This document shows positions 22,813 through 63,545 of a stretch of 64,000 nucleotides of DNA, in pieces. Position 1 is the stretch's first letter, and each line of letters begins with the position of its first letter. The DNA comes from Microbispora catharanthi (GTDB lineage: Bacteria > Actinomycetota > Actinomycetes > Streptosporangiales > Streptosporangiaceae). A program made the position numbers and the translations under genes. The stretch spans positions 1 through 64,000 of the forward strand of contig NZ_VDMA02000028.1 of assembly GCF_006334915.2 (NCBI RefSeq), read 5' to 3'. Below the pieces are notes generated by a model, which had not been told where the DNA came from, searched no databases, and worked only from the letters and a program-made list of their open reading frames with translations.

Positions 22813-22860
22813 TCGACCGCCCAGTTGACGGCTCAGTCGACGGCTCAGTCCGCCGCTCAC
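22813..22860. repeat. 12-bp tandem repeat, four units
   Basis: Four consecutive units of the form TNGNCNGCTCAG lie at 22813, 22825, 22837 and 22849. The middle two differ at one base. The stop codon of the cyclase gene falls in the last unit, so the array is the immediate 3' untranslated region. Confidence 0.7.
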
Positions 22861-31479: not shown

Positions 31480-32103
31480 ATGAAAATCACCGAGATGGCG
31501 ATTCCGGACGCCTACCGCATCCGGCCAGAACGGATACCGGACGTGCGGGGCAACTTCTACGAGGCGTGGCGGATGAGCGAGCTCGCCGAGGCGATCGGCC
31601 GCCCGTTTCCGGTCATGCAGGTGAACTACTCGGTCTCCAGGCGCAACACCCTGCGCGGCATCCACAGCACGGCCGTGCCTCCGGGGCAGGCCAAGCTCAT
31701 CACGTGCGTACGCGGCCGGGTGCTGGACGTCGTGGTCGACCTGCGGGTCGGGTCGCCCACGTTCGGGATGTACGACACCACGATCCAGGACGAGGAGTCC
31801 GGCATCGCGGTCTACCTGGCCGACGGACTCGGTCACGCGTTCCTCGCCCTCACCGAGGGCGCGTGCATGAACTACGTGTGCGCGGAGGAGTACGTGCACG
31901 GCACCATGATCGACGTGCAGGCTCTCGACCCCGAGCTGGGAATCCCGTGGAAGCTGACCGAGCCGCCGATCATGTCGGAGAAGGACAGGGTGGCACCGAC
32001 TCTGGACGAGGCGGTCGCGATGGGCTTGCTGCCCACCTACCAGCAGTGCCGTGACGTCCGCCCGTCGCTGGACGGCGGCAGGGTCCCATCGGAGTCGAAG
32101 TGA
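31480..32103 (+). CDS. NDP-4-keto-6-deoxyhexose 3,5-epimerase (RmlC family)
   Basis: A protein of 207 residues, the usual RmlC-family length. The catalytic His is at residue 62 in NTLRGIHST (family motif LRGLH), with a Gln-containing strand GQAKLITCVRGRVLDVVVD and the Tyr-containing ACMNYVCAEEY. It inverts C3 and/or C5, giving the L-series sugar. The ATG is four bases after the P450 stop, and the stop overlaps the next start (GTGA), so it is co-translated with the 3-ketoreductase. Confidence 0.85.
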   Translation: MKITEMAIPDAYRIRPERIPDVRGNFYEAWRMSELAEAIGRPFPVMQVNYSVSRRNTLRGIHSTAVPPGQAKLITCVRGRVLDVVVDLRVGSPTFGMYDTTIQDEESGIAVYLADGLGHAFLALTEGACMNYVCAEEYVHGTMIDVQALDPELGIPWKLTEPPIMSEKDRVAPTLDEAVAMGLLPTYQQCRDVRPSLDGGRVPSESK

Positions 32104-39156: not shown

Positions 39157-40424
39157 GCCGCCGCCTCCGCAGGACGCGCCAGCACCATCGCACTCTGGAA
39201 CCCACCGAATCCACTGCCGACCGTGAGTGCCACGTCCACCTGCCGCTCGCGGGCGACCAGCGGCACGTAGTCCAAGCCCAGTTCCGGGTCCGGCGAGTGC
39301 AGATTCGCGGTGGGCGGCACCACACCGTGCTCGATGGCCAGCGCGCACGCGGCGACCTCGATCGAGCCGATCGCCCCAAGAGAGTGGCCGATCATCGACT
39401 TGATCGAGCTGATCGGCACCTGGTAGGCGTGATCACCGAGACTGCGCTTGAACGCGGCTGTCTCGTGGCGGTCGTTCTGCTTGGTCGCCGTGCCGTGTGC
39501 GTTGACGTAGTCGACCGACTCCGGGTTCAGCCGCGCCTCGTCCAGTGCCGCGGTGATCGCGGCTGCCAGCTCCTCGCCGTCCGGGCGGAGACCGGTCATG
39601 TGATAGGCGTTGCTGCGGCCGGCGAATCCGCCGATCTCCGCGTAGATGTGCGCGCCCCGGGCCACGGCCGCGGTCAGTTCCTCCAGCACCAGCACGGCGC
39701 TTCCCTCGCCGAGGACGAAGCCGTTGCGGGTGACGTCGAACGGCCTGGACGCCCCGGCCGGGTCGTCGTTGTGCCGCGAGGTCGCTCTGATCGCATCGAA
39801 GCAGGCGACGGTGATGGGCGCGATGGGCGCGTCCGCACCCCCCGCGATCATGATGTCCGCGGTGCCTTCGCGGATCAGCTCACACGCGTATCCGATGGCG
39901 TCGATCCCCGACGTACAGCCCGCGGAGACGACGGTCGACGGCCCTTCGGCCCCGGCGAGCCACGACAGCTCCGCGGCCATCGAGCTGGGCACGAAGTAGT
40001 CGTAGAGATGCGGCACGCCATAGGTGTGATTCACCAGCCAATGACGGCCGCCGTCACTCATGGTGACGTACTCCTCCTCGAGTCTCTGCGTGCAGCCGAC
40101 CGCGCACCCGATGCTCACCCCGGCCCGGTGTGCCTGACCGGAGGTGATGTCCAAACCGCTGTCGGCGATCGCCTCCTTGGCGGCGACGACCGCGAACTGC
40201 GTGACCCGGTCCATTCGCCGGATCTCCTGTGGGCGAAGGCCTTCCTGCCTCGGGTCGAAATCACACTCGGCGGCCATCCGGGATCGGTAAGGCGAGGGAT
40301 CGAAAGAAGTGATGGGGCGGGTCGCACTGATTCCCGATGTGATCCGCTCCCAGAACGCCTTCTTACCGATTCCGCCCGGCGCCACAACGCCGATCCCTGT
40401 TATCACGACGCGACATTGGCTCAC
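39153..40424 (-). CDS. Ketosynthase alpha (KS-alpha)
   Basis: A protein of about 423 residues with catalytic Cys near 170 in VVSAGCTSGID, His in NAHGTATKQND and His in SMIGHSLGAIGS. It condenses malonyl units with the chain-length factor and ACP. I prefer the GTG at 40424, five bases after AGGAGG, over the GTG at 40427 which is only two bases away. Leads the operon KS-alpha, KS-beta, ACP, FAD monooxygenase, with a SARP-type repeat about 60 bp upstream. Confidence 0.9.
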   Translation of the reverse strand: MSQCRVVITGIGVVAPGGIGKKAFWERITSGISATRPITSFDPSPYRSRMAAECDFDPRQEGLRPQEIRRMDRVTQFAVVAAKEAIADSGLDITSGQAHRAGVSIGCAVGCTQRLEEEYVTMSDGGRHWLVNHTYGVPHLYDYFVPSSMAAELSWLAGAEGPSTVVSAGCTSGIDAIGYACELIREGTADIMIAGGADAPIAPITVACFDAIRATSRHNDDPAGASRPFDVTRNGFVLGEGSAVLVLEELTAAVARGAHIYAEIGGFAGRSNAYHMTGLRPDGEELAAAITAALDEARLNPESVDYVNAHGTATKQNDRHETAAFKRSLGDHAYQVPISSIKSMIGHSLGAIGSIEVAACALAIEHGVVPPTANLHSPDPELGLDYVPLVARERQVDVALTVGSGFGGFQSAMVLARPAEAAA

Positions 40425-40483
40425 CACGGCCTCCTAGCGGGGGAAAGTAGGGATACCAACTGTGGTCGGTGTAAGGCTGAAGG

Positions 40484-40589: not shown

Positions 40590-42449
40590 TCAGACGTCAG
40601 CGGGCTCCCGGAGCGGGCTGGTGCTCGGCCCGACGGGTCTGGCCGGCGGCGCGTCCCAGGGATCCACGAGCTGCCGGACCGCGGCCTGGAACAGCGCGGG
40701 AACCCGGTAGCCGGACTCGTGGCCCTCCCGCGTGGACGTCTGTTCCTCGATGAGGCTGGCGTCCACCAACTGCTCCAGCAAGGTCTCCGCCGCGGCCACC
40801 CGGACGTCGAGCAGGTCGGCCACGACGGCCGGGGTCACGGTTTGCCCGCACAGCCCGGCTACCAGGTCGAGCGCGTCGCGGGTGATCCCGCTCAGCTGGC
40901 GGCGGCTGGCCTCGACGCTGGCCAGCAGTTCGTCCCCGTACTCCCCCAGCTCCACCAGGAGGTTGTCGGACCGGCTCAACCGGCCGATCATCCGGTCGAG
41001 GCTCCAGTGCGGCCGTGCGGCGATTCGGCCGGCCACCGCACGCAGGGCCAGCGGCAACCGGTCACAGGTCCGGATGAGCGTCCGCGCGGCCTCGGGCTCG
41101 GTCTCGACCCGCTCGGGACCGATCAGCCGGCCCAGCAGTTCCAGCGCCGAGTCCTCGGGCAGCGGCCCCAGGCTGATGTTGACCATGCCGGGCACCGCGG
41201 TCGGCCGGGTCCGGCTCACAACGAGCATCGCGCATGACGAACCCCCGGGGGTGAGCTCCCGGATGTGCCGGGCGGCGAGGACCTCGTCGAGTACGACCAG
41301 AACCTTGCGGTCCGCGGTCCAGGTGCGGAACATGTTGCTCAGTTCCCGCAGCCCGGGGGGCAACCGGTCCGGTGGTATCCCGCAGCTACGGAGGAAGCCC
41401 GCCAGGATGTCCGCCAGCCCACGGCCACTGTCACCCAAGTCGCCCACGTTCGCGTAGAACTGGCCGTCGGGGAACAACGACCGGAGCTCGTGTGCCGCCT
41501 GGAGCGCGAACGCCGTCTTGCCGACGCCGGGCGGACCGAGGACCTGCACGATGCTCAGCCCACGGTCACCGGCCACGGCCGACCGGAGTCTCCTCGTCTC
41601 CCCCGTACGGCCGACGAAATCGGTGATCGCGGGCGGCAGTTGTGCGGGCGAGGTGGGCGCCATGGCCGACACCTGGTGGCCGACCTCCCCGTCGCCCTTG
41701 AGGATCGAGTGGTGCAGCCGCTGGATCTCGGTGGACGGCTCGAGGCCGAGCCCGGCGACCAGCTCGGTCCTGGTCCGCTGGTAGACGTCCAGCGCCTCGG
41801 CCCGGCGTCCGCAGCGCACCAACGCGAGCATCAGCTTGGCCACGAAACCCTCGTGTGCCGGATTCGCGCTGACCAGCGAGAGCAGCTCGCTGACGACCTC
41901 GTGATGCCGGCCGAGCTGCAGGTCGAGCTCCAACCGCAGCTCCAGGACCTCCTTGCGGATCTCCTCCAGCCGAGTCGCCTCGGCGTCGAGCAGGGGCCCT
42001 CTCTCCACATCCGTCAGCGCCGCCCCCGACCAGAGACCGAGCGCCTCGTTTAACGCTGCGACCGCGTCCTCGATGAGCCCTTCGTGGCGGCATGCCTTCG
42101 CGCGATTGACCAGCGCCTCGAACTCGTACACGTCGACCTGGTCGTCCTCGCCCAACTGCAGCTCGTAGCCGGGCGGCTTGGTCAGCAGGACCAGTGAGCC
42201 GCCGGCGTCCTGGCCTGCCTCGAAACTGCCGAACAGCTTGCGCAACTGGTATATGTACGTCTGCAGCGTCGTTCTGGCGCTCCTCGGAGGCCGGTCACCC
42301 CATAGCTCTTCGACCAACGCGCCGCTGCGTACGACCGTGTCGGCGCGTAAGAGCAACAGGGCGAGGACGCGCCGGAGCATAGGCGCCGAGGGAGTCAGCG
42401 AGCCCTCCGATGTCACGATCTCCAGCGGACCGAGCAATGTGAACCGCAT
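40590..42449 (-). CDS. SARP-family pathway activator with NB-ARC ATPase (large SARP)
   Basis: A protein of 619 residues: OmpR-type winged helix (about 1-90, ending YQLRKLF), a bacterial transcriptional activation domain (about 95-245), and an NB-ARC/AAA module with Walker A VLGPPGVGKTAFAL near 305, similar to AfsR but without the TPR region. Large SARPs bind direct repeats overlapping -35 regions and recruit RNA polymerase. Codon 133 is TTA (42051-42053), so translation should depend on the bldA tRNA. It probably activates the cluster through the TCNA repeat boxes. ATG at 42449; GAGG lies about eight bases upstream. Confidence 0.85.
   Translation of the reverse strand: MRFTLLGPLEIVTSEGSLTPSAPMLRRVLALLLLRADTVVRSGALVEELWGDRPPRSARTTLQTYIYQLRKLFGSFEAGQDAGGSLVLLTKPPGYELQLGEDDQVDVYEFEALVNRAKACRHEGLIEDAVAALNEALGLWSGAALTDVERGPLLDAEATRLEEIRKEVLELRLELDLQLGRHHEVVSELLSLVSANPAHEGFVAKLMLALVRCGRRAEALDVYQRTRTELVAGLGLEPSTEIQRLHHSILKGDGEVGHQVSAMAPTSPAQLPPAITDFVGRTGETRRLRSAVAGDRGLSIVQVLGPPGVGKTAFALQAAHELRSLFPDGQFYANVGDLGDSGRGLADILAGFLRSCGIPPDRLPPGLRELSNMFRTWTADRKVLVVLDEVLAARHIRELTPGGSSCAMLVVSRTRPTAVPGMVNISLGPLPEDSALELLGRLIGPERVETEPEAARTLIRTCDRLPLALRAVAGRIAARPHWSLDRMIGRLSRSDNLLVELGEYGDELLASVEASRRQLSGITRDALDLVAGLCGQTVTPAVVADLLDVRVAAAETLLEQLVDASLIEEQTSTREGHESGYRVPALFQAAVRQLVDPWDAPPARPVGPSTSPLREPADV
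42051..42053 (-). promoter_or_regulatory. TTA codon 133 in the SARP gene (bldA control point)
   Basis: In-frame TTA (Leu133) in VAALNEALG. TTA codons are rare in such GC-rich genomes and are read by the bldA leucyl-tRNA. The regulator is therefore a natural developmental switch. Confidence 0.85.
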
Positions 42450-43387
42450 AAGTTGACCTCGCAGCGATGATCGACAAAGTGGCTCGGGCACGCGGCACCC
42501 CACCACGTGGACACGGGCAAGCCGCCGGAGGGCGCGCGGCTGTACACCCACGCCGATGCCGGCTTACCGGAGACAAGGGAGTTGGATGACCGCTCGTCGC
42601 AGCGGTCCCCAGTCAAGAGCCGAAGATCACCTGATGATGTGACTCACATTGATCCCCCGTTTCTCGCATCGCCGGAAGATGAGATCACCGAGCCGGCAGG
42701 ACACACCACCGCACATGCGATCTCAAACTTCGCCCAGAAGCCTTCTCCCGGCGTGCGCAAGTCAGTAGAGAAAGTCTTTGATCCGGACAGGCGCTACAGG
42801 CGTGTTCCGAGTGAGCCGTCGCCGTCGGCAAGAATCCCGTTCCAGGCTTTCGACATATCCCTCACGCCTTTCATGCCTCCGATCTCACTGATCAGGTCAT
42901 GGTCGCGCCGATACCTCGCCCAGGAGGAACCAACGGGCTAAACGGCCGGGTGTCACCTGCTCCGCGCGACATTAAGGCCCACGGAAAAAGCGCCCAAGAT
43001 CCTGCCCGCAGCCATCGAACACTGCTTTGCGAAATGGCTTCACAAGCAAACCGCACAAACATCGCCCCGTGCGGAACTTATTCTGGCAAATTTTCCAGAG
43101 GGGATCAAGAGGTCACCTGAGGGCAAAACCACCGCTGCACGCAATCCCGGCCGGACCGAAAGAAGGACACAGGCACTACCTGCGGAAACGGTCCGGCATC
43201 GACGATCGCCCTTCTCCTGTCAGCAGTCGGTCGAGGCACACCTTGACCACTTGTAGTTAGCCACAGTCACACATAGTGTCGATCACAGTGACTGTTCGTG
43301 CCCGTGATCGCGAATACGCGTTCATCCGCAGTGGATCAATAATTCACCGAGATGGCCTTGATATATCGATTTCCGGCGGAGGTTCGT
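42450..43387. other. Long intergenic region upstream of the SARP gene (938 bp)
   Basis: No convincing coding frame is present; composition is clearly lower in GC than the flanking genes. It holds the SARP promoter and leader, and probably sites for higher regulators. An inverted repeat CAGTCAC (43264-43270) with GTGACTG (43288-43294) lies near the acyl-CoA carboxylase stop. Its length and composition suggest a hub for global regulators, but no known box was recognised. Confidence 0.5.
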
Positions 43388-49339: not shown

Positions 49340-49372
49340 TCGAGCCGGGATGGATCGCAGGTCAAGGCGGCG
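49340..49372. promoter_or_regulatory. SARP box (three units) near FAD paralogue B
   Basis: Units TCGAGCCGGGA at 49340, TGGATCGCAGG at 49351 and TCAAGGCGGCG at 49362 are in 11-bp phase, 67-99 bp upstream of the ATG at 49439. Confidence 0.5.
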
Positions 49373-49438: not shown

Positions 49439-51079
49439 ATGCCGGTCGAGCACGTTCCCGTTCTGATCACCGGCGGCAGCACCGTCGGACTGTCCACCGC
49501 CGTCGCCCTTGCCCAGCACGGACTACGTCCGATGCTCGTGGAGCGCCGGGACGGAACGCTGATCCACCCGCGGGCGACCGGGCTGCACCCGCCGGCCCGG
49601 GAGTTCTTCCGCAGCACCGGTCTCGACGCCCAGATGCGAGAGGCCAGCGCGGTGCTGGCCAGCAGCCTGACCAAGTTCAGCGTGACGACGCTCGCGGGCG
49701 ACGACCTGTCGAAAGTGGAGCGGATCCCGACTCCGCCGGAGGACGTGGTCGCGGCGACCCTGCGGATAAGTCCCACGGACGTCAACCCCTGTGCGCAGGA
49801 CCAGATCGACCGGGTGCTGCTGGCCGCCGCCGCCGAGCGGGGAGTGGATGTCCGGTTCTCCACGGAACTGGTGTCGATGACCCAGGACGAGTCCGGGGTG
49901 ACCGCGACGCTGCTCAACCGGGCGACCGACGAGCGCTACACCGTACGGGCCGACTATCTGGTCGGCGCCGACGGCTCCTCCAGCCGGGTGCGGGAGCTGC
50001 TGGGCATCCCCATGGAGATCGAGGATCGGCTCGGCAACCCGATGATCCACATCCTGTTCGACGCGGACCTCGGCGAGCTCATCCGGGGCAACGAGTTCAA
50101 CTTCTGCGAGATCAGGCACCCGGACTACGAGGGATTGCTGCTGTCGATCAACAACAGGGACCGCTGGGTGTTCCACCGCAGCTACGACGAGACCAAGGAG
50201 TCCGTGGCGGACTATCCGGAGGAGCGCTGCCTTGAGCTGATCAAGGGCGCGATCGGGCTGCCCGACCTGCCGGTGAAGATCCTGGCCATGCTGCCGTGGC
50301 GGATCTCGGCCGGAGTGGCCGACGCGGTGAGGGACGGCCGGGTCTTCCTGGCCGGGGACGCCATTCATGTCATCCCGCCCATCGGTGGTTTCGGCATGAG
50401 CACGGGCATCGCCGACGCCTACAACCTGAGCTGGAAGCTGGCCATGGTGCTGCGCGGCCACGCGGGGCCGGGGCTGCTGGACACCTACTCCCAGGAGCGG
50501 CTGCCGATCGCGGAGTTCACCAGAGACCAGGCCGTGCTGCGGTTGCGGTACATGGCCCTGCACTGGGATCCCCGTCCGGAGGCCGAGCAGGAGCGCAACA
50601 TGCTGCGCATCGCCGATCCGCTCGTCACCAGTTCGGGCTACCAGTACACCGAGGGCGCCGTCCTCGGCGCCCGGGAGGAGCTTCCCTCCCTTGAGGACGT
50701 CGAGCAGAACCTGGACGGCTCGCCCGGCAGCCGGGTGCCGCACGTGTGGGTCGAGCGCAAGGGGGAGAAGGTCTCCACCCTCGACCTGGCCGGCACCGGC
50801 TTCGCCCTGCTGACCGGTCCGGACGCCACGGGCTGGCAGCAGGCCGGGCAGGCCGTCGCCGAGCACACCGGCCTGCCGTTGGGCGTGTACCGCATCGGGC
50901 CGGGCGCCGAGATCGACGACCCCGGCAGCCGTTTCGCCACCGTCGCCGGCATCGGCGAGGAGGGCGCGCTGCTGGTCCGGCCGGACAACTTCGTCGCCTG
51001 GCGTGCCACGGGAGCCCACCCCGAGCCGCGCGAGCAGCTCACCGGGATCCTCGACGCCCTCCTGCACCGGACCGCCTGA
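49439..51079 (+). CDS. FAD-dependent monooxygenase, paralogue B
   Basis: A protein of 546 residues: VLITGGSTVGLSTAVALAQH, DG motif YLVGADGSSSRVRELLG, GD motif VFLAGDAIHVIPPIGGFGMS near 306, and a C-terminal thioredoxin-like domain ending RPDNFVAWRATGA. The GD motif has Ile for the usual Ala before His. It is a close paralogue of the gene at 46477 and a more distant one of 35969. Strong GAGGAAGAGG upstream of ATG 49439. Leads an operon with the radical SAM gene. Confidence 0.85.
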   Translation: MPVEHVPVLITGGSTVGLSTAVALAQHGLRPMLVERRDGTLIHPRATGLHPPAREFFRSTGLDAQMREASAVLASSLTKFSVTTLAGDDLSKVERIPTPPEDVVAATLRISPTDVNPCAQDQIDRVLLAAAAERGVDVRFSTELVSMTQDESGVTATLLNRATDERYTVRADYLVGADGSSSRVRELLGIPMEIEDRLGNPMIHILFDADLGELIRGNEFNFCEIRHPDYEGLLLSINNRDRWVFHRSYDETKESVADYPEERCLELIKGAIGLPDLPVKILAMLPWRISAGVADAVRDGRVFLAGDAIHVIPPIGGFGMSTGIADAYNLSWKLAMVLRGHAGPGLLDTYSQERLPIAEFTRDQAVLRLRYMALHWDPRPEAEQERNMLRIADPLVTSSGYQYTEGAVLGAREELPSLEDVEQNLDGSPGSRVPHVWVERKGEKVSTLDLAGTGFALLTGPDATGWQQAGQAVAEHTGLPLGVYRIGPGAEIDDPGSRFATVAGIGEEGALLVRPDNFVAWRATGAHPEPREQLTGILDALLHRTA

Positions 51080-51116
51080 CCGTTCCCCACAGACTCCAGG
51101 ACAGGAAAGGCGGTCG

Positions 51117-53006
51117 ATGTTGGACATCAGCCTCGTTCAGCAGGGCGCATGGGACATGCCGCTCGACTCGATGCCGCTCGCCGCGGGGTACCTCAAGGCG
51201 GTGGTCGACGCCGATCCGGATCTGTCGGCGGAGGCGACCGTGCGGATCCGCAACTTCCGGGGCGGCCGGACGCTGACGCAGATGGCCCGCCGGTTGTTCC
51301 TCGACGGGACTCCCGACGTGCTGGCGTTCTCCGTGCTCGGCTGGAACTACCGCAACTTCGGCGCACTGGCCGAGATGTTCAAGCAGCTCAACCCGCACGG
51401 CACCGTGATCTTCGGCGGCAACCACGTCGCATACCAGTCCGAGCGGGTGTTCCGCGAGTTCCCGCACGTCGACGTCGTGGTCAACGGCGAGGGCGAGCAC
51501 ACCTTCCGCGAGCTGGTGGCATACCTGCTCGGCCGCCGCGGCGACCTGGACCCGGTCGGCGTGGCCGGCTGCTCCTTCCGCCGCCCCGACGGCTCGGCGC
51601 ACACCACGCCGGAGCGGGAGCGGATCTCCGACCTGGACACCATTCCCTCGCCTTTCCTCACGGGGGCCATCCCGATGACCGACTCGGCCGGGAACTTCCG
51701 TTATGACGTGGCGTTGATGGAGACCAACCGAGGCTGCCCGTACAAGTGCTCGTTCTGCTACTGGGGCGGCGCGGTCGGGCAGAAGATGCGATCGTTCTCC
51801 GCCGAACGACTGGCCGAGGAGCTCGACGTGTTCGGCTTCCACCAGGCTCCCTCGATCGTGCTGTGCGATTCCAATTTCGGGCTGCTGGAGTCCGACGAGC
51901 AGTTCGTCGAGATGCTGATCAAGACCAGGGAGCGGCACGGCTACCCGCGTGCGCTGGAGACCAGCTGGGCCAAGAACAAGTCGGCCCGGTTCTACAAGAT
52001 CGTCAAGGAGCTGCAGCGACACGGTTTCCAGAGTTCGTTCACGCTGGCCCTGCAGACTCTCTCCGATGAGGCGCTGACCGGCATGCTGCGCAAGAACATG
52101 AAGGTCAACCAGTGGGAGAGCCTGGTCGACTGGCTCAACGAGGAAGGACTGGACTGCTACGCCGAGCTGATCTGGGGCGCTCCGGGCGAGACGCCCACGT
52201 CATTCCTCGCCGGCTACGACAGACTGGCCGCCAAACTGTCGCGCATCGCGGTCTACCCGATGTTGTTGCTGCCCAACACGTCCTACAGCGAGCACAGGGA
52301 AGTGCACGGGTTCGTGACCATCCGCGGTGAGGACGACGACTTCGAGTACGTGCTCGCCAACCGCAGTTTCACTCTCACCGAGAACCTGGAGATGCAGCGG
52401 TTCATCTTCTGGGCCCGGATACTGGGCGAGAACCAGTACCTGCGGCACGTCTGGCAGGCGGCCCGGGAGCTGGCCGGGCTGACGCAGTCGCAGGTGATCA
52501 GCAGCCTCAAGCAGTATTTCGAAGAGTCCGACCACCCCTCGGCGATCGCGTTGCTCAACGCCGTTCCCGTGCTCGCCGAGTCACCGGCGATCGCCGGCGC
52601 CCTGCGTTCCCTGTACGGCCGGCCCGAACTGGAGGCGGTCGTACACCGGTGGTGGCGGGAGGTGATGGTGCCGCGGTTCCCGCCTCGGTGGCGGCGGTTC
52701 GCCGAAGCCCTCTACGAGTACGAGCGCTGGTCCCGCCCGGTGTACGTGGTGCCGGGCGAGGATCCGCCGGCCGGCTGGCGTCTCGCCGGTGACGACGGGT
52801 ACGAGAGCGAGACCGTGTGCCTGCCGTACGACGTGGCGCAGGCCCTCGCGAACTGGGCGGAAACCGTGGCGTCCGGCCCCACGGAGCGGCCGACGGCGTT
52901 CGCGTTCACCGCTCGTCGCGGTTTCCACGACCACCTGGACAACCACGAGACGGCGGCGCACTACATGGCTCAGCCGAGGCGCGTCCCTCAGCCCGCCACG
53001 GTCTGA
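51117..53006 (+). CDS. B12-binding radical SAM enzyme (probable class B methylase or rearrangement enzyme)
   Basis: A protein of 629 residues. The N-terminal about 140 residues form a cobalamin-binding Rossmann domain (TVIFGGNHVAYQSERVFREF; DVVVNGEGEHTF). The radical SAM CX3CX2C cluster is Cys207, Cys211 and Cys214 in NRGCPYKCSFCYWGG. A long helical C-terminal region of about 200 residues follows. Class B enzymes methylate unactivated carbon; related B12 enzymes make ring contractions. In an aromatic polyketide cluster it could C-methylate a sugar or sp3 position. ATG at 51117 follows AGGAAAGG. Downstream is a long hairpin. Confidence 0.85.
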   Translation: MLDISLVQQGAWDMPLDSMPLAAGYLKAVVDADPDLSAEATVRIRNFRGGRTLTQMARRLFLDGTPDVLAFSVLGWNYRNFGALAEMFKQLNPHGTVIFGGNHVAYQSERVFREFPHVDVVVNGEGEHTFRELVAYLLGRRGDLDPVGVAGCSFRRPDGSAHTTPERERISDLDTIPSPFLTGAIPMTDSAGNFRYDVALMETNRGCPYKCSFCYWGGAVGQKMRSFSAERLAEELDVFGFHQAPSIVLCDSNFGLLESDEQFVEMLIKTRERHGYPRALETSWAKNKSARFYKIVKELQRHGFQSSFTLALQTLSDEALTGMLRKNMKVNQWESLVDWLNEEGLDCYAELIWGAPGETPTSFLAGYDRLAAKLSRIAVYPMLLLPNTSYSEHREVHGFVTIRGEDDDFEYVLANRSFTLTENLEMQRFIFWARILGENQYLRHVWQAARELAGLTQSQVISSLKQYFEESDHPSAIALLNAVPVLAESPAIAGALRSLYGRPELEAVVHRWWREVMVPRFPPRWRRFAEALYEYERWSRPVYVVPGEDPPAGWRLAGDDGYESETVCLPYDVAQALANWAETVASGPTERPTAFAFTARRGFHDHLDNHETAAHYMAQPRRVPQPATV

Positions 53007-53009
53007 ACG

Positions 53010-53050
53010 GCGAGACCCGTGGGCGGCCACCGGCGGCCCACGGGTCTCGC
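53010..53050. terminator. Perfect 15-bp hairpin between radical SAM and DUF6365-like gene
   Basis: GCGAGACCCGTGGGC at 53010-53024 pairs with GCCCACGGGTCTCGC at 53036-53050. Convergent genes flank it. Confidence 0.8.
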
Positions 53051-53057
53051 ACTCGGG

Positions 53058-54338
53058 TCAGGCGTTCTTGATGCCGAGCTTGCCGGCCGCGGCCCGGATC
53101 ACCTCGTGAGTGGGCGGCAGGTCGTCGACCAACCGGACGTAACGCGACTGCGCTTCGGCCAGCCGCTCACGGACCGCGGGTTCGTACAGGATGCCCCGCA
53201 TCCCTTCCACCACGGCCCTCTCATCGAACAGCTGCTCGTGGGCCATCGCCGTCAGGTACTCGTTGCCCTGCACCAGCGGCTCGACGAAGTGATACAGCCC
53301 CTTCGGCCAGTGCCGGAACGGGTCGATCGGCACGACCTCGCCCAGCCACGAGCGCACGGTGTCCGACAGACCGCCGAGCTCCTGTTCCATGCCGGCGACG
53401 CTCTGCTCGTCGGTCAACGTGAACCGGTTGGTGAGCAGCATGCCGGGCGTGCCCATCAGCACGGCGCGAGCGAGCGTCACCGCGTTCATGCTCAGCGACA
53501 GCAGCAGGTCCGCGGAGCTGAGCAGCGCGTGATAGCGGTCGGGTGTGGTGGGCGCGAGCACGTGCAGCCGCTCCGCGGGCAGGGTGGTGAAGGGCTCCAG
53601 CATGGGACCGACCACCACGACGTGGGTGCTGTCCGGCAACTGGCGCAGATAGTGGGCGAGCAGCTCGGGCACCCGCTCCCCCAGGCGGACCATCATGTCC
53701 GTGGTCTGCCGGGTGACCTCCTTGGGCTGCTGCCAGCTCGACACCGGAATCAGCACCAACCGGTCGTTCGGCGACAGGCCGAGCTCGGCGAACACCTTCG
53801 CCCGGGTGCGCTCGTCGCGGCCTGGCTCCGGGGCGATGATCCGGTAGGGGTAGCCGCGGCCGGACGGCCCCGGGTCCAGGTGCGCGATCGGAACCGGCCG
53901 GAGGTGCACGTCCATGTCCAGGATGTGCCTGTCGTACTCCCGCCCCCAGCCCCGGCCGCAGAAGTCGTAGGCGAAGACGGTGTTCTCCCATTCCCACATG
54001 TCGATGGGGAGCAACGGAACGCCGTGCTTCTCGATGAACCATGGGTCGTCCACGCCGCTGCGGACCATGTGGCCCCAGAAGTTGGTGTAGTCGGCCAGCA
54101 CTATGGCGTCCGGGCGGACATCCCTGATCACCTCGTCGACGAACCGCTCGACCGGCCGGGCGTCGCCGTCGATGATGTGGAACGGATACCTGCCCGCGCG
54201 AAACAGCGGCTCCACGGCTTTCGTGGTGACGAAGTGGTTCTGGACCCCGCCGTCGGCCAGTTGGTCGGCGAGGGACAGGCCGACGAAGGTCTCGCCGTAC
54301 CCACCCAGCACCGGCAGGCTGAAGTGCAACAGTTTCAT
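53058..54338 (-). CDS. DUF6365-like protein A, candidate GT-B-type glycosyltransferase
   Basis: A protein of 426 residues with two Rossmann-like halves: an N-terminal MKLLHFSLPVLGGYGETFVG and a C-terminal RLHVLAPTTPDRYHALLSSA, then DLLLSLSMNAVTLARAVLMG. The overall rhythm is that of GT-B glycosyltransferases, but the conserved His-Cys-Gly-Gly loop of macrolide/aromatic GTs is not present. It belongs with a DUF6365-type family of unknown function and is paralogous to the 427-residue protein at 55500. ATG 54338 follows AAGGGGAG. It is co-transcribed after the acyltransferase or from its own SARP box. Confidence 0.7.
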   Translation of the reverse strand: MKLLHFSLPVLGGYGETFVGLSLADQLADGGVQNHFVTTKAVEPLFRAGRYPFHIIDGDARPVERFVDEVIRDVRPDAIVLADYTNFWGHMVRSGVDDPWFIEKHGVPLLPIDMWEWENTVFAYDFCGRGWGREYDRHILDMDVHLRPVPIAHLDPGPSGRGYPYRIIAPEPGRDERTRAKVFAELGLSPNDRLVLIPVSSWQQPKEVTRQTTDMMVRLGERVPELLAHYLRQLPDSTHVVVVGPMLEPFTTLPAERLHVLAPTTPDRYHALLSSADLLLSLSMNAVTLARAVLMGTPGMLLTNRFTLTDEQSVAGMEQELGGLSDTVRSWLGEVVPIDPFRHWPKGLYHFVEPLVQGNEYLTAMAHEQLFDERAVVEGMRGILYEPAVRERLAEAQSRYVRLVDDLPPTHEVIRAAAGKLGIKNA

Positions 54339-54353
54339 CCGAACTCCCCTTGG

Positions 54354-54406
54354 TGGACTCTCCGTCGACGATGGCGAGCGCGCCTCGAGACCCGCTCAAG
54401 CCCGGG
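54354..54406. promoter_or_regulatory. SARP-like repeats upstream of DUF6365-like protein A
   Basis: A clear pair, TCGAGACCCGC at 54385 and TCAAGCCCGGG at 54396, and a weaker pair, TGGACTCTCCG at 54354 and TCGACGATGGC at 54365, each with 11-bp phase. They overlap the end of the acyltransferase gene and precede the minus-strand start at 54338. Confidence 0.45.
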
Positions 54407-55373
54407 TGGTCGCCCGGATGCGATGCATGGCCGCCCGCACCACGTCCCGGTCGGCCCGCGGGTCGCCGGCCCGCGCCGGCGACATGGCCACGACCTCGCT
54501 GCCGCCCGGCCGCACCGCGGGGTGACGCCGGGCCAGGCTGGCCAGGCCCTGCCCCGGCCCGGCCTCCACGAGCAGGAAGTCCCCGCTCGCCAGCAGGGCG
54601 TCCAGCGCGGGCCGGAACAACACCGGAGCGACCGGATGACTCGCCCAGAAGGCCGGGGCGGCCACCTGCTCCGCGGTCAGCACCGCGGCGGTGTAGCCGG
54701 AGTAGATGGGGATGCTCGGCGGCCGGGCCGGCACCGCCGCGAAGGCGCGCTCCGCCCCGGCGACCGAGAACGCCAGCAGCGGACTGTGGAACGGGCAGGT
54801 CGCGGGCACGCGGCGGCAGGTGAACGCGTCGTCGCGCAACGCCTCCTCCACCGCGAGCAGGGGCGCCTCGGCGCCCGCGAGCACGGTCTGGCGAGGCGCG
54901 TTGATCGCCCCGACCACCACGTCGGAGCGCAGGAACGGCTCCACCTCCCGCACCGAGGCCGCGACCACCAGCATCCCGCCGGGCACCGCCCCCGACAGGC
55001 TGCGCACCCTCTCACGCAGCAGCCGCACGGCGTCGGCCAGGTCGAAGACACCGCCCAGGACCGCCGCCGCCATCTCGCCGATGCTGTGTCCCAGCAGCGC
55101 CGCGGGGCGCTCCCAGCTCCCCGCCAGCCGGCCGAGGGCGTAGTCGACCGCGAACAGCAACGGCTGGGACCGGGTCATGTGATCGATGGACACCTGAGGA
55201 CGTGCGGCAAGCCAGTCGTCCCGCAACCGCGGGCCCTGGTCTTCGAAGGCCGCGAACACCTCGTCCATCGCCTCGGTGAACACCTCCTCGTGCCCGTACA
55301 GGCCGGCTGCCATCAACGCCTGCTGCGAGCCTTGTCCCGGCAACAGCAGGGCCAGCGGTTTGGGCGCCGTCAT
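54396..55373 (-). CDS. Acyltransferase (FabD/PKS AT family), possibly starter-unit AT
   Basis: A protein of 325 residues. The nucleophile elbow is AALLGHSIGEMAAAVLG, with Ser near 96. The substrate-specificity motif, HAFH in malonyl- and YASH in methylmalonyl-specific ATs, reads CPFH in ATCPFHSPLLAFS. The conserved Gln (PGQGSQ) is at the N-terminus. Discrete ATs in type II clusters load or edit starter units (ZhuC-like). With the acyl-CoA ligase this predicts a non-acetate starter. ATG at 55373 follows GAGGAGG. Divergent from DUF6365-like protein B across a four-unit SARP box. Confidence 0.8.
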   Translation of the reverse strand: MTAPKPLALLLPGQGSQQALMAAGLYGHEEVFTEAMDEVFAAFEDQGPRLRDDWLAARPQVSIDHMTRSQPLLFAVDYALGRLAGSWERPAALLGHSIGEMAAAVLGGVFDLADAVRLLRERVRSLSGAVPGGMLVVAASVREVEPFLRSDVVVGAINAPRQTVLAGAEAPLLAVEEALRDDAFTCRRVPATCPFHSPLLAFSVAGAERAFAAVPARPPSIPIYSGYTAAVLTAEQVAAPAFWASHPVAPVLFRPALDALLASGDFLLVEAGPGQGLASLARRHPAVRPGGSEVVAMSPARAGDPRADRDVVRAAMHRIRATTRA

Positions 55374-55421
55374 CGCGAACCTCCTCAGTGCGTGCCTGAC
55401 CGACTGAGTAAGCACCGATGG

Positions 55422-55465
55422 TCGAGGACGGTTCGAACCCGCCTCGAGCAGGCGTCGGCAGTCTC
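55422..55465. promoter_or_regulatory. Four-unit SARP box between AT and DUF6365-like protein B
   Basis: TCGAGGACGGT, TCGAACCCGCC, TCGAGCAGGCG and TCGGCAGTCTC start at 55422, 55433, 55444 and 55455, exactly 11 bp apart. It is the cleanest array in the window and the type site for the motif. Confidence 0.65.
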
Positions 55466-55499
55466 GGCAGCCGGTAGCAGCGACACGACGGGAGTTCCC

Positions 55500-56783
55500 A
55501 TGAGATTGCTGTACTTCAGCCTCTCCGCGGCCGCGTTCGGCGAGACGTTCATCGGCCTGTCACTGGCCGAACAGCTGCGCCGGGCGGGCATGGACAACCA
55601 TTTCGTGGTGCCGCCGGTCACCGCCCCCGCCGTACGGCACTTCGGCTTCGAGCACACCGTGGTGGACTACGCGACCTGTCCGAAGGGACCTGCCGCCCGG
55701 GCGTTCATCGACGACCTGGTGAAAACCGTGGAACCGGATGCGATCGTGCTGTCGGACTACGGCTCGTACTCCCGCAGCGTGGAGTTCCACCTGCGGCTCG
55801 ACCCGTGGTTCATCGAGGAGTACGGCCTGCCGATCCTGCCGATCGACCTGGGCGAATGGGAGAACACCACCTTCGAGATCGACCTGGTCGGCCGCGATCC
55901 CGTACCGGTCAGCAAGAAGATCCTGGACTGGCCGGCTCACCTGCGCCCCGTCCCGACCGCCCACCTGGACGCGGGAGCGGGCGGCAGCGGCTGTCCCTAC
56001 CGGGTCGTCGCACCGGAGCCACCCGTGACCGACCTGGCCAGGGCGGGAGTGTTCAACGAGTTCGGCCTGCGCCGCGACGACCGGCTGGTGCTGATCCCGG
56101 TCTCGTCGTGGCAGCAGCCCGGCGGCCGGATGTCCGGTGAGATGAGCGCCAGACTGGCCGAGCGCGTCCCCGAATTGCTGGTCCACTATCTCGGCCGGCT
56201 GCCCGCCGCCACCCATTTCCTGGTGATCGGCGAGCCGCCGCCCGCCCTGCTCGGCCTGCCCGCCGAGCGTCTGCACGTCATCCCGCCCTGCTCGATCGAG
56301 CGGTTCACCACGCTGCTCGGCACGTCGGACCTGACCATCGTGTTCAGCCCGACGAGCGCGACCAGTGCCCGGTCGGTCCTGATGAACCGCACCGCGATGG
56401 TCGTGCAGAACCGGTTCCGGGTGCACAACGACGCGGACGTGGCGCTTGTCGACGCCGAGGTGAAGCTGACCGGCACGGTGCGCGACTGGCTGGGCCGAGC
56501 GGCGCCCATCGACCCGTTCCGCCTGTGGCCGAAGGGCGCCTACTTCGTCCAGGAGCCGATGTTCACCGACAACCCGTACATGGACGCGCTGATCACCGCG
56601 GAGATCCTGGACGAGACCGGCACCGTCGCCGCCATGGAAGGGGCGCTGTACGACCCCGAGATCCGCGATCGGCACGCGTCGGCCCGGGCGGACTATCTGC
56701 GGGCGGTGAACGCCCTGCCGGACACCGCGGACGTGGTCCTCGCCGCCGTCCAGCGCGCCACCGCCGCGCTCTCCGGCCATTGA
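55500..56783 (+). CDS. DUF6365-like protein B, candidate GT-B-type glycosyltransferase
   Basis: A protein of 427 residues, paralogous to protein A: MRLLYFSLSAAAFGETFIGL, DLGEWENTTFEIDLVGRDPV and PIDPFRLWPKGAYFVQEPMF match the equivalent segments. The C-terminal half (RLHVIPPCSIERFTTLLGTS; SARSVLMNRTAMVVQNRF) is where a GT-B enzyme would bind the NDP-sugar. Two such proteins fit two glycosylation steps or a heteromeric enzyme. GGGAG precedes ATG 55500. The stop TGA lies at the promoter of the MFS gene. Confidence 0.7.
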   Translation: MRLLYFSLSAAAFGETFIGLSLAEQLRRAGMDNHFVVPPVTAPAVRHFGFEHTVVDYATCPKGPAARAFIDDLVKTVEPDAIVLSDYGSYSRSVEFHLRLDPWFIEEYGLPILPIDLGEWENTTFEIDLVGRDPVPVSKKILDWPAHLRPVPTAHLDAGAGGSGCPYRVVAPEPPVTDLARAGVFNEFGLRRDDRLVLIPVSSWQQPGGRMSGEMSARLAERVPELLVHYLGRLPAATHFLVIGEPPPALLGLPAERLHVIPPCSIERFTTLLGTSDLTIVFSPTSATSARSVLMNRTAMVVQNRFRVHNDADVALVDAEVKLTGTVRDWLGRAAPIDPFRLWPKGAYFVQEPMFTDNPYMDALITAEILDETGTVAAMEGALYDPEIRDRHASARADYLRAVNALPDTADVVLAAVQRATAALSGH

Positions 56784-60657: not shown

Positions 60658-62091
60658 TCACCACAGACCATGGAGGCAGGCGGTCAGGGTGCGTGCCTGC
60701 ACGTTGAGATAGCGGCTGTGCTGCAACAGGTCGGTCAGCTGGCTGACGGTGAGCCAGCGGTGATCCTCGGACGCGGCCAGCGGGAAGTCACCGTCGACCT
60801 CGACGACCATGTAGCGGTTTCGCGCTCGGTAGAAGCGGCCGCCTTCCTCGGATTGAACGGCGTCGTAACGGACCCTCTCCGGCGGCGCCGTCAGCACCTC
60901 GTCCAGGAACGCCGGCCGGCTGCCGGCCGGCAGCCCCTCGTAGTTCGACGGGGTGCACTGCACGGTGGGCGCCAGCTCGACCATGTCGAGATAACCGGGC
61001 TCGATCCGGGCGTGCACGAGCACGTGCAGCACGCCCTCGATGCGCTTGGTGAGGAAGGCGATCACACCCTGATCGCGTGGCGCGAACAACGGCTGCGTCC
61101 AGTTCGCGACCTCACGCGTGTTCCCCTCGACCGACACCGCGATCGTCTCGAAGTGTTTTCCTTCGGTGTGCGCGATCGTGTCGTCGCCGCGCCGCCACCC
61201 GGTGACGTCGTTCAGCGGGATGCGCCGTACGGCCAGCCGGTAGCGGGTCTTGGTCTCGGTGACCCAGCTGAGGATCTCTCCCATCGAGTGGAGCGTTCCC
61301 TCATCCCGCGCCAGCGACCGCACCAACGCCGACCGGAACCCGGAGTCGGTGCCGGCGCCGCCGGGCGTGCCGAAGGGGATGCACGACAGGACCGTCCGCG
61401 CGTCCATGTTGACCACGTTGTCCAGCTGCAGCAGCTCCTGCAGCTGGCCCAGGGTGAGCCAGCAGAAATCCGGGTGCAGCGGAACGTCCTGGGTGGTCTC
61501 CACGACGATGTTGCGGTTGCGCTTGTGGTGGAACCAGGCGCCCTGCTCGGATTGCAACACGTCCACCAGCACACGGCCGCGCCGGTCGCCGACGAAATGC
61601 TCCAGGTAGGGCACGCTGCCGCCCCTGTGGACCCTGGTGTAGTTGCTGTGGGTGGCCTGGACGGTCGGCGACAACTGCAGCAGCGGAAGATTGCCCGGCT
61701 CCATCTTCGCCTGCATGAGGCAGTGCAGCACGCCGTCGATCTGCTTGACCAGGATCCCGAGAATTCCGATCTCGGGCTGGTTGATGATCGGCTGCGTCCA
61801 CCGGGGAACCGGACCGTAGTCGGTCTGCACCTCCAGGCCCTCGACGGTGAAGAACCGCCCACTGACATGCCGCAGGTTGCCCGTGTCCGGATCGAAGTCC
61901 CATCCGTCCAACTCGGCGAACGGCACGCGGCGCACCTCCAGCACACCGGCGCGGGCTCGCTCGGCGAACCACTCGTGGAACTGGTCCGTCGGCATCAGCC
62001 GGTTGTCGCTCGTGGACCCTGACTCGGTGAAGCGGTAGTCGTGCTCCCGGTTCTCGCGCCGGAGCAAGGCGTTGGCCGGCACTTGCACCAC
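60658..62091 (-). CDS. NDP-hexose 2,3-dehydratase
   Basis: A protein of about 477 residues made of two homologous halves (about 30-240 and 270-470), each with a Trp-Thr-Gln-Pro motif (RWTQPIINQPEIGI; NWTQPLFAPRDQGV) and a PTVQ-containing strand (SPTVQATHSNY; APTVQCTPSNY), as in EvaA/UrdS/OleV. It removes the C2 hydroxyl from NDP-4-keto-6-deoxyglucose, giving the 3,4-diketo sugar that the 3-ketoreductase at 32100 would reduce. I chose the GTG at 62091, five bases from AGGAGG; GTGs at 62097 and 62088 are alternatives. Confidence 0.85.
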   Translation of the reverse strand: MVQVPANALLRRENREHDYRFTESGSTSDNRLMPTDQFHEWFAERARAGVLEVRRVPFAELDGWDFDPDTGNLRHVSGRFFTVEGLEVQTDYGPVPRWTQPIINQPEIGILGILVKQIDGVLHCLMQAKMEPGNLPLLQLSPTVQATHSNYTRVHRGGSVPYLEHFVGDRRGRVLVDVLQSEQGAWFHHKRNRNIVVETTQDVPLHPDFCWLTLGQLQELLQLDNVVNMDARTVLSCIPFGTPGGAGTDSGFRSALVRSLARDEGTLHSMGEILSWVTETKTRYRLAVRRIPLNDVTGWRRGDDTIAHTEGKHFETIAVSVEGNTREVANWTQPLFAPRDQGVIAFLTKRIEGVLHVLVHARIEPGYLDMVELAPTVQCTPSNYEGLPAGSRPAFLDEVLTAPPERVRYDAVQSEEGGRFYRARNRYMVVEVDGDFPLAASEDHRWLTVSQLTDLLQHSRYLNVQARTLTACLHGLW

Positions 62092-62138
62092 GTGCACCTC
62101 CTGACTAGGTCTGTCCGCTGGACAGGTCGGCTCGCGCG

Positions 62139-63455
62139 TCAGGCGCAGCCCGCGACGAACTCACGGATGGTTGAGGTCATGTAATCGATCATTTCGGCGG
62201 TGATCACCGGATGGACGCCGATCCAGAAGGTACGTTCGGTGACGATGTCGCTGTTGGTCAGGTCGCCGGCGACCCGGTAGGTCTCCTTGCGGTAGGCCGG
62301 ATGGCGGGTCAGATTGCCGGCGAACAGCTGGCGGGTGCCGATCCCGGCCCGTTCGAGTACGGCCACGATGTCCCTGCGTTCGAACGGCGCGCCCTCCTCG
62401 ACGGTCAGCACGAAGCCGAACCAGCTCGGATCGCTGCCCGGAGTGGGCTCGGGCAGCCGCAGGCCCTCGACGCCGAGCAGGCCGTCACGCATTCGCCGCC
62501 AGTTGCGACGCCGGGCGGCCCCGAACTCCGGCAGCCGGCGCAGCTGGGTCTCGCCGAGCGCGGCCTGCAGGTCGGTCGCCTTCATGTTGTAGCCGACGTG
62601 GGAGAAGATGTACTTGTGGTCGTAGCCGGGCGGCAGCGTGCCGAGCGTCCACTTGAAGCGGCGAGCGCACTTGTCGTCCTCACCCGGCTCGCACCAGCAG
62701 TCGCGCCCCCAGTCCCTGACCGACTCCACGATCCTGGCCAGCTGCAGGTTGTCGGTCAGGACACTGCCGCCCTCGCCGGTGGTGATGTGGTGCGCCGGAT
62801 AGAAGCTCTGCGTCGCGAGGTCGCCGAACGTCCCGGTCAACCGGCCGCCGTAGGTCGAGCCGAGCGCGTCACAGTTGTCCTCGACGAGCCACAGCCCCTT
62901 CTCCTTGGCCAGTTCCGCGATCTCGGCCACCGGGAACGGATTGCCCAGCGCGTGCGCGATCATGATCGCCTTGGTCTTCGGGCCGATGGCCTCGGCGACC
63001 CGCTCGAGGGTCGTGTTGTACGTGCTGAGCTCGATGTCGACGAACACCGGGATGAGCCGGTTCTGCACGATCGGGTTGACCGTGGTCGGGAAACCCGCCG
63101 CGACAGTGATCACCTCGTCGCCCGGCAGCAGCCGCCGGCGGCCCAGCAACGGCGACGTCAACGCGGTCAGCGCGACCAGGTTGGCCGACGAACCGGAGTT
63201 GACGAAGTGGGCCTTGCGCAGGCCGACCGTCTTGGCCAGCGCCAGCTCGAACCGCCGTGAGTAGGCGCCTGCCGCGATCCGCATGTCCAGCGCCGCCTTC
63301 ACCAGCGCGACCCGGTCGTCCTCGTCGAGGTCCGCTCCGGTCGGGGTGATCGGTGTCTCTCCTGGCACGAACGGCTTGGTGCCGATCTGCTGATGGTATT
63401 TGCGGACCTGCTCGAGGATCAGCGTCCTGGTGTCGCTCGCCATCGGGCTCGTCAT
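62139..63455 (-). CDS. NDP-4-keto-6-deoxyhexose 3-dehydratase, E1/SpnQ type (PMP and [2Fe-2S])
   Basis: A protein of 438 residues of the PLP aminotransferase fold. The usual PLP lysine is replaced by His222 in SFYPAHHITTGEGG, and the four [2Fe-2S] cysteines of the E1/SpnQ family are at Cys195, Cys253, Cys255 and Cys263 (DWGRDCWCEPGEDDKC). It removes the C3 hydroxyl, leading to a 2,3,6-trideoxy sugar. It needs a reductase partner (E3 type) not seen here. ATG 63455 follows GGGAG-TG-GGAG. Confidence 0.85.
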   Translation of the reverse strand: MTSPMASDTRTLILEQVRKYHQQIGTKPFVPGETPITPTGADLDEDDRVALVKAALDMRIAAGAYSRRFELALAKTVGLRKAHFVNSGSSANLVALTALTSPLLGRRRLLPGDEVITVAAGFPTTVNPIVQNRLIPVFVDIELSTYNTTLERVAEAIGPKTKAIMIAHALGNPFPVAEIAELAKEKGLWLVEDNCDALGSTYGGRLTGTFGDLATQSFYPAHHITTGEGGSVLTDNLQLARIVESVRDWGRDCWCEPGEDDKCARRFKWTLGTLPPGYDHKYIFSHVGYNMKATDLQAALGETQLRRLPEFGAARRRNWRRMRDGLLGVEGLRLPEPTPGSDPSWFGFVLTVEEGAPFERRDIVAVLERAGIGTRQLFAGNLTRHPAYRKETYRVAGDLTNSDIVTERTFWIGVHPVITAEMIDYMTSTIREFVAGCA

Positions 63456-63545
63456 CGTGACTGTCTCCCACTCCCACTTTCGTGGCGCGGGTCCGGCGTA
63501 CGCGGAAGATGACACACCTCCCTGCCGTCCCTGCCGTACCGGACT

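Follow-up and report, generated by a model that had tools for sequence, protein, structure and literature searches.

The closest described relatives of the proteins considered here are the GT1 or EryCIII-like glycosyltransferases (PF06722 and PF21036; ‘canonical’ glycosyltransferases in what follows), which have a GT-B fold, comprise approximately 400–430 residues, are encoded beside deoxysugar genes and show a similarity to them in profile comparison. Three other kinds of protein invite comparison: the glycopeptide glycosyltransferases GtfA and GtfD; UDP-GlcNAc 2-epimerase, which has a GT-B fold but no transferase function; and the glycosyltransferase activators of the DesVIII/EryCII type, which are P450-like proteins. 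In this study we describe two proteins, A and B, of the family DUF6365 (PF19892), encoded in a type II polyketide cluster of Microbispora catharanthi (genome size 9.25 Mb). The window that we analysed comprises 64,000 nucleotides, corresponding to bases 1–64,000 of the 119,524-bp contig NZ_VDMA02000028.1. DUF6365 is listed in Pfam without an assigned function, and a literature search whose coverage excluded most subscription journals turned up no paper that names the family and no functional assignment for it. On the basis of structural models, sequence comparison and gene context, we propose, with a probability that we put at roughly 0.7, that DUF6365 is an unrecognised family of GT-B glycosyltransferases and that A and B add sugars.

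A pair of DUF6365 genes around an acyltransferase gene

The two genes and the gene that lies between them are the following.

53058–54338, minus strand: DUF6365 protein A, putative GT-B glycosyltransferase (426 residues; PF19892, E = 8.9e-117; acid E16)
54396–55415, minus strand: acyltransferase, upstream of A (PF00698, E = 4.6e-32)
55500–56783, plus strand: DUF6365 protein B, putative GT-B glycosyltransferase (427 residues; PF19892, E = 5.4e-121; acid E15)

A preliminary description of this DNA had noted two DUF6365 paralogues of 426 and 427 residues flanking an acyltransferase gene, and the gene calls and PF19892 matches confirm this arrangement. The acyltransferase gene is followed after 57 bp by gene A on the same strand, and gene B diverges from this pair; the acyltransferase is outside the sugar step itself. 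Proteins A and B match PF19892 with 390.9 and 404.8 bits (gathering score 32.5) over model positions 1–402 and 1–403 of 404, respectively. This is the only Pfam family that either protein matches, and neither matches any NCBIfam model. The two are 46–47% identical to each other and are the only DUF6365 copies found in the M. catharanthi genome.

Predicted fold and conserved residues

AlphaFold models, built from a 20-sequence alignment, were of high confidence for both proteins (predicted local distance difference test, pLDDT, 92.1 for A and 92.2 for B; predicted TM-score, pTM, 0.90 for each) and predict two Rossmann-like domains in a GT-B arrangement. Comparison of the models with GT-B structures, as had been suggested in the preliminary description, placed both proteins with GT-B glycosyltransferases. 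Foldseek matched them to GT-B enzymes with a probability of 1.00, with 391 (A) and 454 (B) matches in the Protein Data Bank (PDB) at E ≤ 0.001 and lowest E-values of 2.4e-12 for A and 1.3e-13 for B (the latter to the elaiophylin glycosyltransferase). Nearly all of the 50 matches listed for each protein are GT-B glycosyltransferases, many of them acting in antibiotic pathways; they include YjiC, the elaiophylin enzyme, VinC, CalG1, SpnP, UrdGT2 and EryCIII, as well as GtfA and GtfD, which are among the matches of B.

Sequence comparison pointed in the same direction at the level of profiles. In a single profile–profile comparison, DUF6365 matched a set of ten canonical glycosyltransferases encoded in these clusters with a probability of 96% (E = 4.4e-9); in the alignment, E15 of B stands opposite the N-terminal histidine found in the canonical enzyme of the M. 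catharanthi cluster. In a profile search of PDB sequences the best match was GtfD; this match is weak (E = 0.029) and confined to approximately 45 N-terminal residues, within which GtfD has an aspartate at the position of E15. This aspartate is the proposed base of GtfD. The same position is acidic in all 31 aligned homologues (29 glutamates and two aspartates), and D83, D113, W202, D277, P345 and N359 are likewise conserved in 31 of 31, with R291 present in 30. (These 31 sequences are the 29 of the tree described below together with homologues from the survey genomes G877 and G912.) In UDP-glycosyltransferases an N-terminal histidine has been proposed as general base, as for H39 of human UGT1A1 (PMC1885805; here and below, literature statements refer to the accessible parts of the papers cited by PMC number). 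In DUF6365 the putative base is a glutamate or aspartate instead of a histidine.

The tree of 29 sequences was built without the G877 and G912 homologues and without two matches below the cut-off (G243 and G533). In it, B pairs with one of two copies from Virgisporangium aurantiacum (support 99/95); a clade with support 99/98 unites these two with A and the DUF6365 protein of Actinokineospora spheciospongiae. Because B groups with the Virgisporangium copy, the M. catharanthi pair did not arise by recent duplication. Both proteins have intact reading frames and equally confident models, and neither departs from the alignment at any invariant position. The tree and the retained residues make it more likely that both are working enzymes, differing in acceptor or position, than that one enzyme has a dead partner. 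The possibility that only one of the two is catalytic and the other a scaffold or heterodimer partner draws on the occurrence of pairs in M. catharanthi, in Virgisporangium and, distantly, in the survey genome G208; given the features just described, and with the other loci seen being single-copy, we regard it as unlikely.

Distribution and gene context of DUF6365

The family is rare. It was found in seven of 345 genomes of the order (six over the cut-off, M. catharanthi included), in three of 396 genomes sampled across the phylum (two over the cut-off, again including M. catharanthi) and in nine of 394 genomes of Streptomycetaceae. Further members came from one plasmid record and from 17 loci in scans of named genomes, several of which represent the same genomes; in these scans a two-sequence alignment confirmed none of 49 candidate stretches, and a second scan confirmed 17 of 42. 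The neighbourhoods of a subset of the DUF6365 holders were then surveyed for NDP-hexose (nucleoside diphosphate hexose) 2,3-dehydratase (25 genomes or records) and for PF06722 (22), with part of the genes near DUF6365 being scanned.

The members fall into three kinds of context: type II polyketide clusters, clusters with multiple radical SAM (S-adenosylmethionine) genes, and a group of distant members (G208, with a tandem pair, G364, G912 and Thermosporothrix). All 18 surveyed genomes and records of the type II polyketide kind contain an NDP-hexose 2,3-dehydratase gene, which in 12 lies on the same contig as DUF6365, within 27 kb, and in six on another contig. Those six are Actinokineospora and five draft assemblies, whose sugar genes we presume to be part of the DUF6365 cluster. 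With Actinokineospora set aside, an RfbH-like 3-dehydrase gene is present at 15 of the 17 type II polyketide loci; at the other two the sugar gene sets could be read in part only (N. halotolerans, which is on short contigs, and plasmid NZ_CP108163, where the set extends beyond the stretch read). By our own gene calls, DUF6365 overlaps an upstream 3,5-epimerase gene by 4 bp at five of five granaticin-type loci, and overlaps an upstream nucleotidyltransferase gene, also by 4 bp, at five of five radical-SAM loci. The co-occurrence with deoxysugar genes that the preliminary description had proposed to look for was thus examined: some homologues are embedded in deoxysugar gene sets, and others immediately follow a nucleotidyltransferase gene.

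The radical-SAM type of cluster recurs in several genomes (loci L021–L023, L024–L027, L055–L058, L032 and L066, from G305, G302, G795, G941/S. cellulosae and G192). It holds several radical SAM genes, some of them B12-binding, the nucleotidyltransferase–DUF6365 overlap, a haem-oxygenase-like gene and ABC transporter genes, and in some cases a regulator of the SARP (Streptomyces antibiotic regulatory protein) type and a small gene of 70–85 codons. At all four of the radical-SAM loci checked (G305, G302, G795 and G1126) a search of the contig up to 45 kb from DUF6365 revealed no PF06722 match, the contig of G305 beginning 18.8 kb from the gene. The two contexts appear mixed in G208, where the tandem DUF6365 pair (L029, 13081–15790) lies by a radical SAM gene, a nucleotidyltransferase gene and a PF06722-type gene.

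Related clusters in Actinokineospora and Virgisporangium

Actinokineospora spheciospongiae has a homologous cluster, carried on a contig of 97,972 bp, in which the only DUF6365 protein is 48% identical to A; the ketosynthase (KS), P450, B12 radical SAM protein and acyltransferase are 75%, 79%, 72% and 63% identical to their M. catharanthi counterparts. When the seven M. catharanthi deoxysugar genes were compared with this contig, only the Gfo/Idh oxidoreductase found a match; this match is weak (29%), and the gene concerned corresponds to a different gene of the M. catharanthi cluster. The contig carries no deoxysugar gene set. Searches of the same contig with PF06722, PF00534 and PF00201 also gave no match. 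Directly and divergently beside the DUF6365 gene are one methyltransferase gene of the TylF family and two of the MycE family, which are named for macrolide enzymes and whose members methylate sugars. Elsewhere in the genome is a gene for the dTDP-rhamnose reductase RmlD (285.8 bits, cut-off 224). The plain reading is that a methylated sugar, perhaps rhamnose, is attached by DUF6365.

Virgisporangium aurantiacum has a related cluster in which a tandem pair of DUF6365 genes lies right behind a canonical glycosyltransferase gene. The same three methyltransferase genes are found on another contig of this genome, together with deoxysugar genes.

A proposed role in sugar transfer

We read the DUF6365 proteins as glycosyltransferases because of their predicted fold, the profile match, the conserved acid, the gene context and the Actinokineospora cluster. 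From the family identity, predicted fold, conservation and context described above, we infer a mechanism in which the donor would be a nucleotide sugar, bound by the C-terminal domain with R291 and the invariant D277 placed where GT1 enzymes carry an H-x-G-G motif. The general base would be the conserved acid that follows strand 1, which is E16 in protein A and E15 in protein B, and the acceptor, either aromatic or already glycosylated, would be bound by the N-terminal domain. In M. catharanthi, A and B would work alongside the canonical EryCIII-like glycosyltransferase of the cluster, each adding a sugar, most likely the cluster's 2,3,6-trideoxyhexose, either to a sugar that the product already bears or directly to the type II polyketide. 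The preliminary description had likewise assigned sugar attachment to the DUF6365 pair, and the fold, profile match, acid and context support that assignment; its argument, that the pair must fill the place of a missing canonical enzyme, was mistaken.

A number of observations weigh against a glycosyltransferase function. The first concern structure and sequence. The TM-scores of the Foldseek matches are mostly approximately 0.45–0.6, with large root-mean-square deviations over the whole chain, in a comparison made at whole-chain level without residue-level superposition. No Pfam or NCBIfam glycosyltransferase model, PF06722 and PF00201 included, matches A or B. Plain hidden Markov model searches between DUF6365 and the canonical glycosyltransferases found nothing, the profile–profile comparison being the only one to give a match, and searches of PDB sequences with the single proteins gave one chance match for A (E = 0.34) and none for B. 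The H-x-G-G-type donor motif of GT1 enzymes is absent from DUF6365: in the aligned region A has SLSMNAVTLAR and B has FSPTSATSAR, where the canonical enzyme of the same cluster has HHGGGGG. By the indirect signs of predicted fold, profile match and conserved acid, DUF6365 looks like a GT-B glycosyltransferase, one that lies outside GT1 by sequence.

The structural matches also include UDP-GlcNAc 2-epimerase, at rank 49 for A. This enzyme, together with the frequent coupling of DUF6365 to nucleotide-sugar genes, might indicate a different GT-B-fold activity, that of an epimerase or hydrolase acting on the NDP-sugar donor. Glycosyltransferases rank above it for A, however, and it is absent from the 50 matches listed for B. 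The deoxysugar pathway of M. catharanthi already has an epimerase and reductases, the gene context does not call for an epimerase, and the Actinokineospora contig has a DUF6365 gene yet no sugar-nucleotide gene set. We consider a donor-modifying enzyme improbable.

The remaining points concern context. A canonical PF06722 enzyme is encoded within approximately 21 kb at 16 of the 17 type II polyketide loci with sugar genes (the seventeenth is on a 5.9-kb contig), and glycosylation at these loci could therefore be explained without invoking DUF6365. Four of the five radical-SAM genomes lack a 2,3-dehydratase gene and the fifth (G795) has one 3.9 Mb away, so that the sugar donors must differ in those clusters. 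Among Streptomycetaceae, PF03559 is present in seven of the nine genomes with DUF6365 and in 167 of 394 overall, a mild enrichment and one at the level of the genome. In Actinokineospora, three further genes on the DUF6365 contig, one of the GT2/GtrA type and two for PMT-type mannosyltransferases, are found 7.5–12.7 kb beyond DUF6365, and other contigs contain a 2,3-dehydratase gene as well as 11 matches to PF06722.

The company of a canonical enzyme at 16 of the 17 polyketide loci, the position of the Virgisporangium pair directly behind one and the PF06722 gene near the distant G208 pair would suit a non-catalytic partner or activator of the canonical glycosyltransferase, in a role like that of DesVIII or EryCII. 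The absence of PF06722 matches from the 45-kb surroundings of DUF6365 at the four radical-SAM loci checked, and from the Actinokineospora contig, argues against such a role, as does the acid kept at the catalytic-base position in 31 of 31 homologues. The known activators are P450-like, whereas A and B have a predicted GT-B fold and show no match to the p450 family in Pfam. We think a partner role has little chance of being correct. The preliminary description had allowed for two transferases or for an enzyme with its partner; the latter version is disfavoured by the mostly single-copy occurrence of the family and by the clusters without a nearby canonical glycosyltransferase.

If A, B and their homologues are indeed glycosyltransferases, additional sugars are predicted on the products of the M. 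catharanthi cluster and of its Actinokineospora relative, and glycosylation would be expected in radical-SAM clusters near which no glycosyltransferase of the usual family was found. The family would also offer enzymes with an unusual donor site for glycodiversification. Since DUF6365 genes are annotated as being of unknown function, current counts of glycosylation steps for aromatic-polyketide antibiotics are probably too low.

Granaticin-type clusters

Five genomes (S. litmocidini, S. lateritius, Streptomyces sp. ISL-36, G1078 and G877) have in common a granaticin-type cluster in which DUF6365 lies amid genes for a 3-dehydrase, a reductase and a 2,3-dehydratase, as for rhodinose, and which contains one canonical glycosyltransferase in addition to DUF6365. 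In S. lateritius the cluster also includes a MerR-type regulator and an Sfp-type phosphopantetheinyl transferase. The granaticin cluster has been described as containing a SoxR-like gene, gra-orf20 (PMC8733708), and an in-cluster phosphopantetheinyl transferase, Gra-ORF32 (PMC9813960), and litmomycin is identical with granaticin A according to a title cited in PMC12190653. The shared layout, the MerR- and Sfp-type genes of S. lateritius and the identity of litmomycin with granaticin A suggest that all five are granaticin clusters. In the literature searched, we found no paper joining litmocidini with granaticin, and the accessible part of PMC9813960 makes no mention of gra-orf24/25.

A 2025 paper states, in its accessible part, that only one glycosyltransferase homologue is known in the granaticin cluster, and it describes the attachment of the sugars and the formation of the double C-link as unexplained (PMC12190653). 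We infer that the second sugar-attaching activity of these clusters may well belong to DUF6365, which, if it is a glycosyltransferase, would also be a candidate for the attachment of rhodinose in granaticin B. More broadly, and with somewhat less than even confidence, DUF6365 could be a glycosyltransferase family of antibiotic pathways with a non-GT1 donor site that includes the L-rhodinosyltransferase of granaticin B, and whose radical-SAM versions would transfer a nucleotide-activated group supplied by the translationally coupled nucleotidyltransferase. The unexplained double C-link raises a further alternative, in which DUF6365 would form the second sugar–aglycone C–C bond of double C-glycosides such as granaticin and would make no glycosidic bond. 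The position of the gene amid rhodinose genes, with its overlap with the 3,5-epimerase gene, and its presence in the quite different radical-SAM and M. catharanthi types of cluster, make this very improbable.

A YcaO-domain protein (PF02624, E = 2e-100) is encoded inside or beside a granaticin-type cluster (L051, 4823–7081, in a genome identical to that of S. lateritius), and two DUF6081 genes accompany the YcaO gene (L070, 6246–7043, and L052, 11199–12035).

Polyketide and sugar genes of the M. catharanthi cluster

The sugar genes and the canonical glycosyltransferase gene of the cluster are listed below; coordinates beyond 64,000 refer to the contig.

31480–32103, plus strand: dTDP-4-dehydrorhamnose 3,5-epimerase family (PF00908, E = 1.2e-48)
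32100–33107, plus strand: Gfo/Idh family oxidoreductase, by context a probable sugar 3-ketoreductase (PF01408, E = 9.1e-26)
60658–62097, minus strand: NDP-hexose 2,3-dehydratase (PF03559, E = 7.4e-171)
62139–63515, minus strand: RfbH-like 3-dehydrase dependent on pyridoxal phosphate (NF011936, 654.9 bits, cut-off 423)
63546–64652, minus strand: sugar epimerase/4-ketoreductase, crossing the window edge at 64000 (PF01370)
66158–67375, plus strand: canonical EryCIII-like glycosyltransferase (PF06722, 108 bits; PF21036, 91.5 bits)
69431–70309, beyond the window: nucleotidyltransferase (PF00483)
70346–71308, beyond the window: probable 4,6-dehydratase (PF16363)

Genes outside the window were called with a script based on G+C content by codon position, which leaves their start codons uncertain, and were named by BLAST against genes of this contig or other fetched genes and by Pfam scans of chosen proteins rather than by a curated pipeline. 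In the Pfam scans of the window some references turned out to be on the wrong strand and yielded no family match, and a few of the called genes, for example those at 8973–9788, 17098–17904, 21656–22756, 22857–23627 and 33887–35893, were outside the scans.

The preliminary description had placed a full trideoxysugar gene set inside the window. This proved incorrect, as the nucleotidyltransferase (69431) and 4,6-dehydratase (70346) genes lie beyond its edge and the epimerase/reductase gene crosses it. It had also found no canonical glycosyltransferase, which holds for the window itself: PF06722, PF00534, PF00201 and PF00535 have no match within the 64 kb. Over the whole contig the sole match to these four families is to PF06722, at 66926–67339 within the gene at 66158–67375, which starts approximately 2.2 kb past the window end; tblastn agrees, and the absence of further glycosyltransferases from the contig is judged from these four family searches and tblastn. 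A canonical glycosyltransferase just beyond 64 kb is half of what the preliminary description had named as speaking against its own proposal, and the EryCIII-like gene rules out a cluster without such an enzyme.

Two ketosynthase-family genes of the type II polyketide synthase, at 39156–40427 and 37948–39348, are taken to encode the KS and the chain length factor (CLF). By Pfam and NCBIfam matches the cluster further includes several flavin-dependent (FAD) monooxygenases, a P450, O-methyltransferases and an exporter of the major facilitator superfamily (MFS), and genes for a ketosynthase III (KSIII) and an acyl carrier protein (ACP) lie just past the window edge. Kigamicin was considered as the product and dropped, since no asparagine-synthase-type gene (PMC9327801) was present among those window proteins that were scanned, which are not all of them.

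Other genes are recorded here as side observations. A B12 radical SAM methyltransferase of the KedN5 type is encoded at 51003–53006 of the window (NF033712, 1018 bits, cut-off 700), within a type II polyketide cluster; its Actinokineospora counterpart is the 72% identical protein mentioned above. A single 766-residue protein (25651–27948) fuses an AMP-ligase to an antibiotic-biosynthesis-monooxygenase (ABM) domain and has counterparts of 764 residues in Actinokineospora (63% identical) and 524 residues in Virgisporangium (60%). Between the canonical glycosyltransferase gene and the sugar nucleotide genes (contig 67422–69412; L003, 7338–9409) are genes for E1 alpha and E1 beta subunits, whose action could provide a starter unit that is branched or, alternatively, a two-carbon branch on a sugar.

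A single SARP-box-like repeat between the two DUF6365 genes

Two features relate to regulation of the pair.

40590–42551, minus strand: SARP-type regulator (BTAD domain, PF03704, E = 6.8e-42)
55422–55448, no strand assigned: SARP-box-like repeat (TCGAG, TCGAA and TCGAG at 11-bp spacing) in the divergent promoter common to acyltransferase–A and B

The repeat is the only exact occurrence of TCGAG-N17-TCGAG in the window. With at most one mismatch allowed there are eight matches, two of which are both strands of this site, against 11.2 expected, and only the placement of the site is therefore notable. Each DUF6365 gene had been described as lying near a strong SARP box; a separate box for each gene did not hold up, because there is one site common to acyltransferase–A and B and because no direct repeats of at least 7 nucleotides were found at 54320–54420 or 52990–53070. 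The SARP-type regulator is a possible reader of the box. A second SARP-like repeat, with one mismatch, lies at 49340–49366 in the divergent stretch between an O-methyltransferase gene and an FAD monooxygenase gene.

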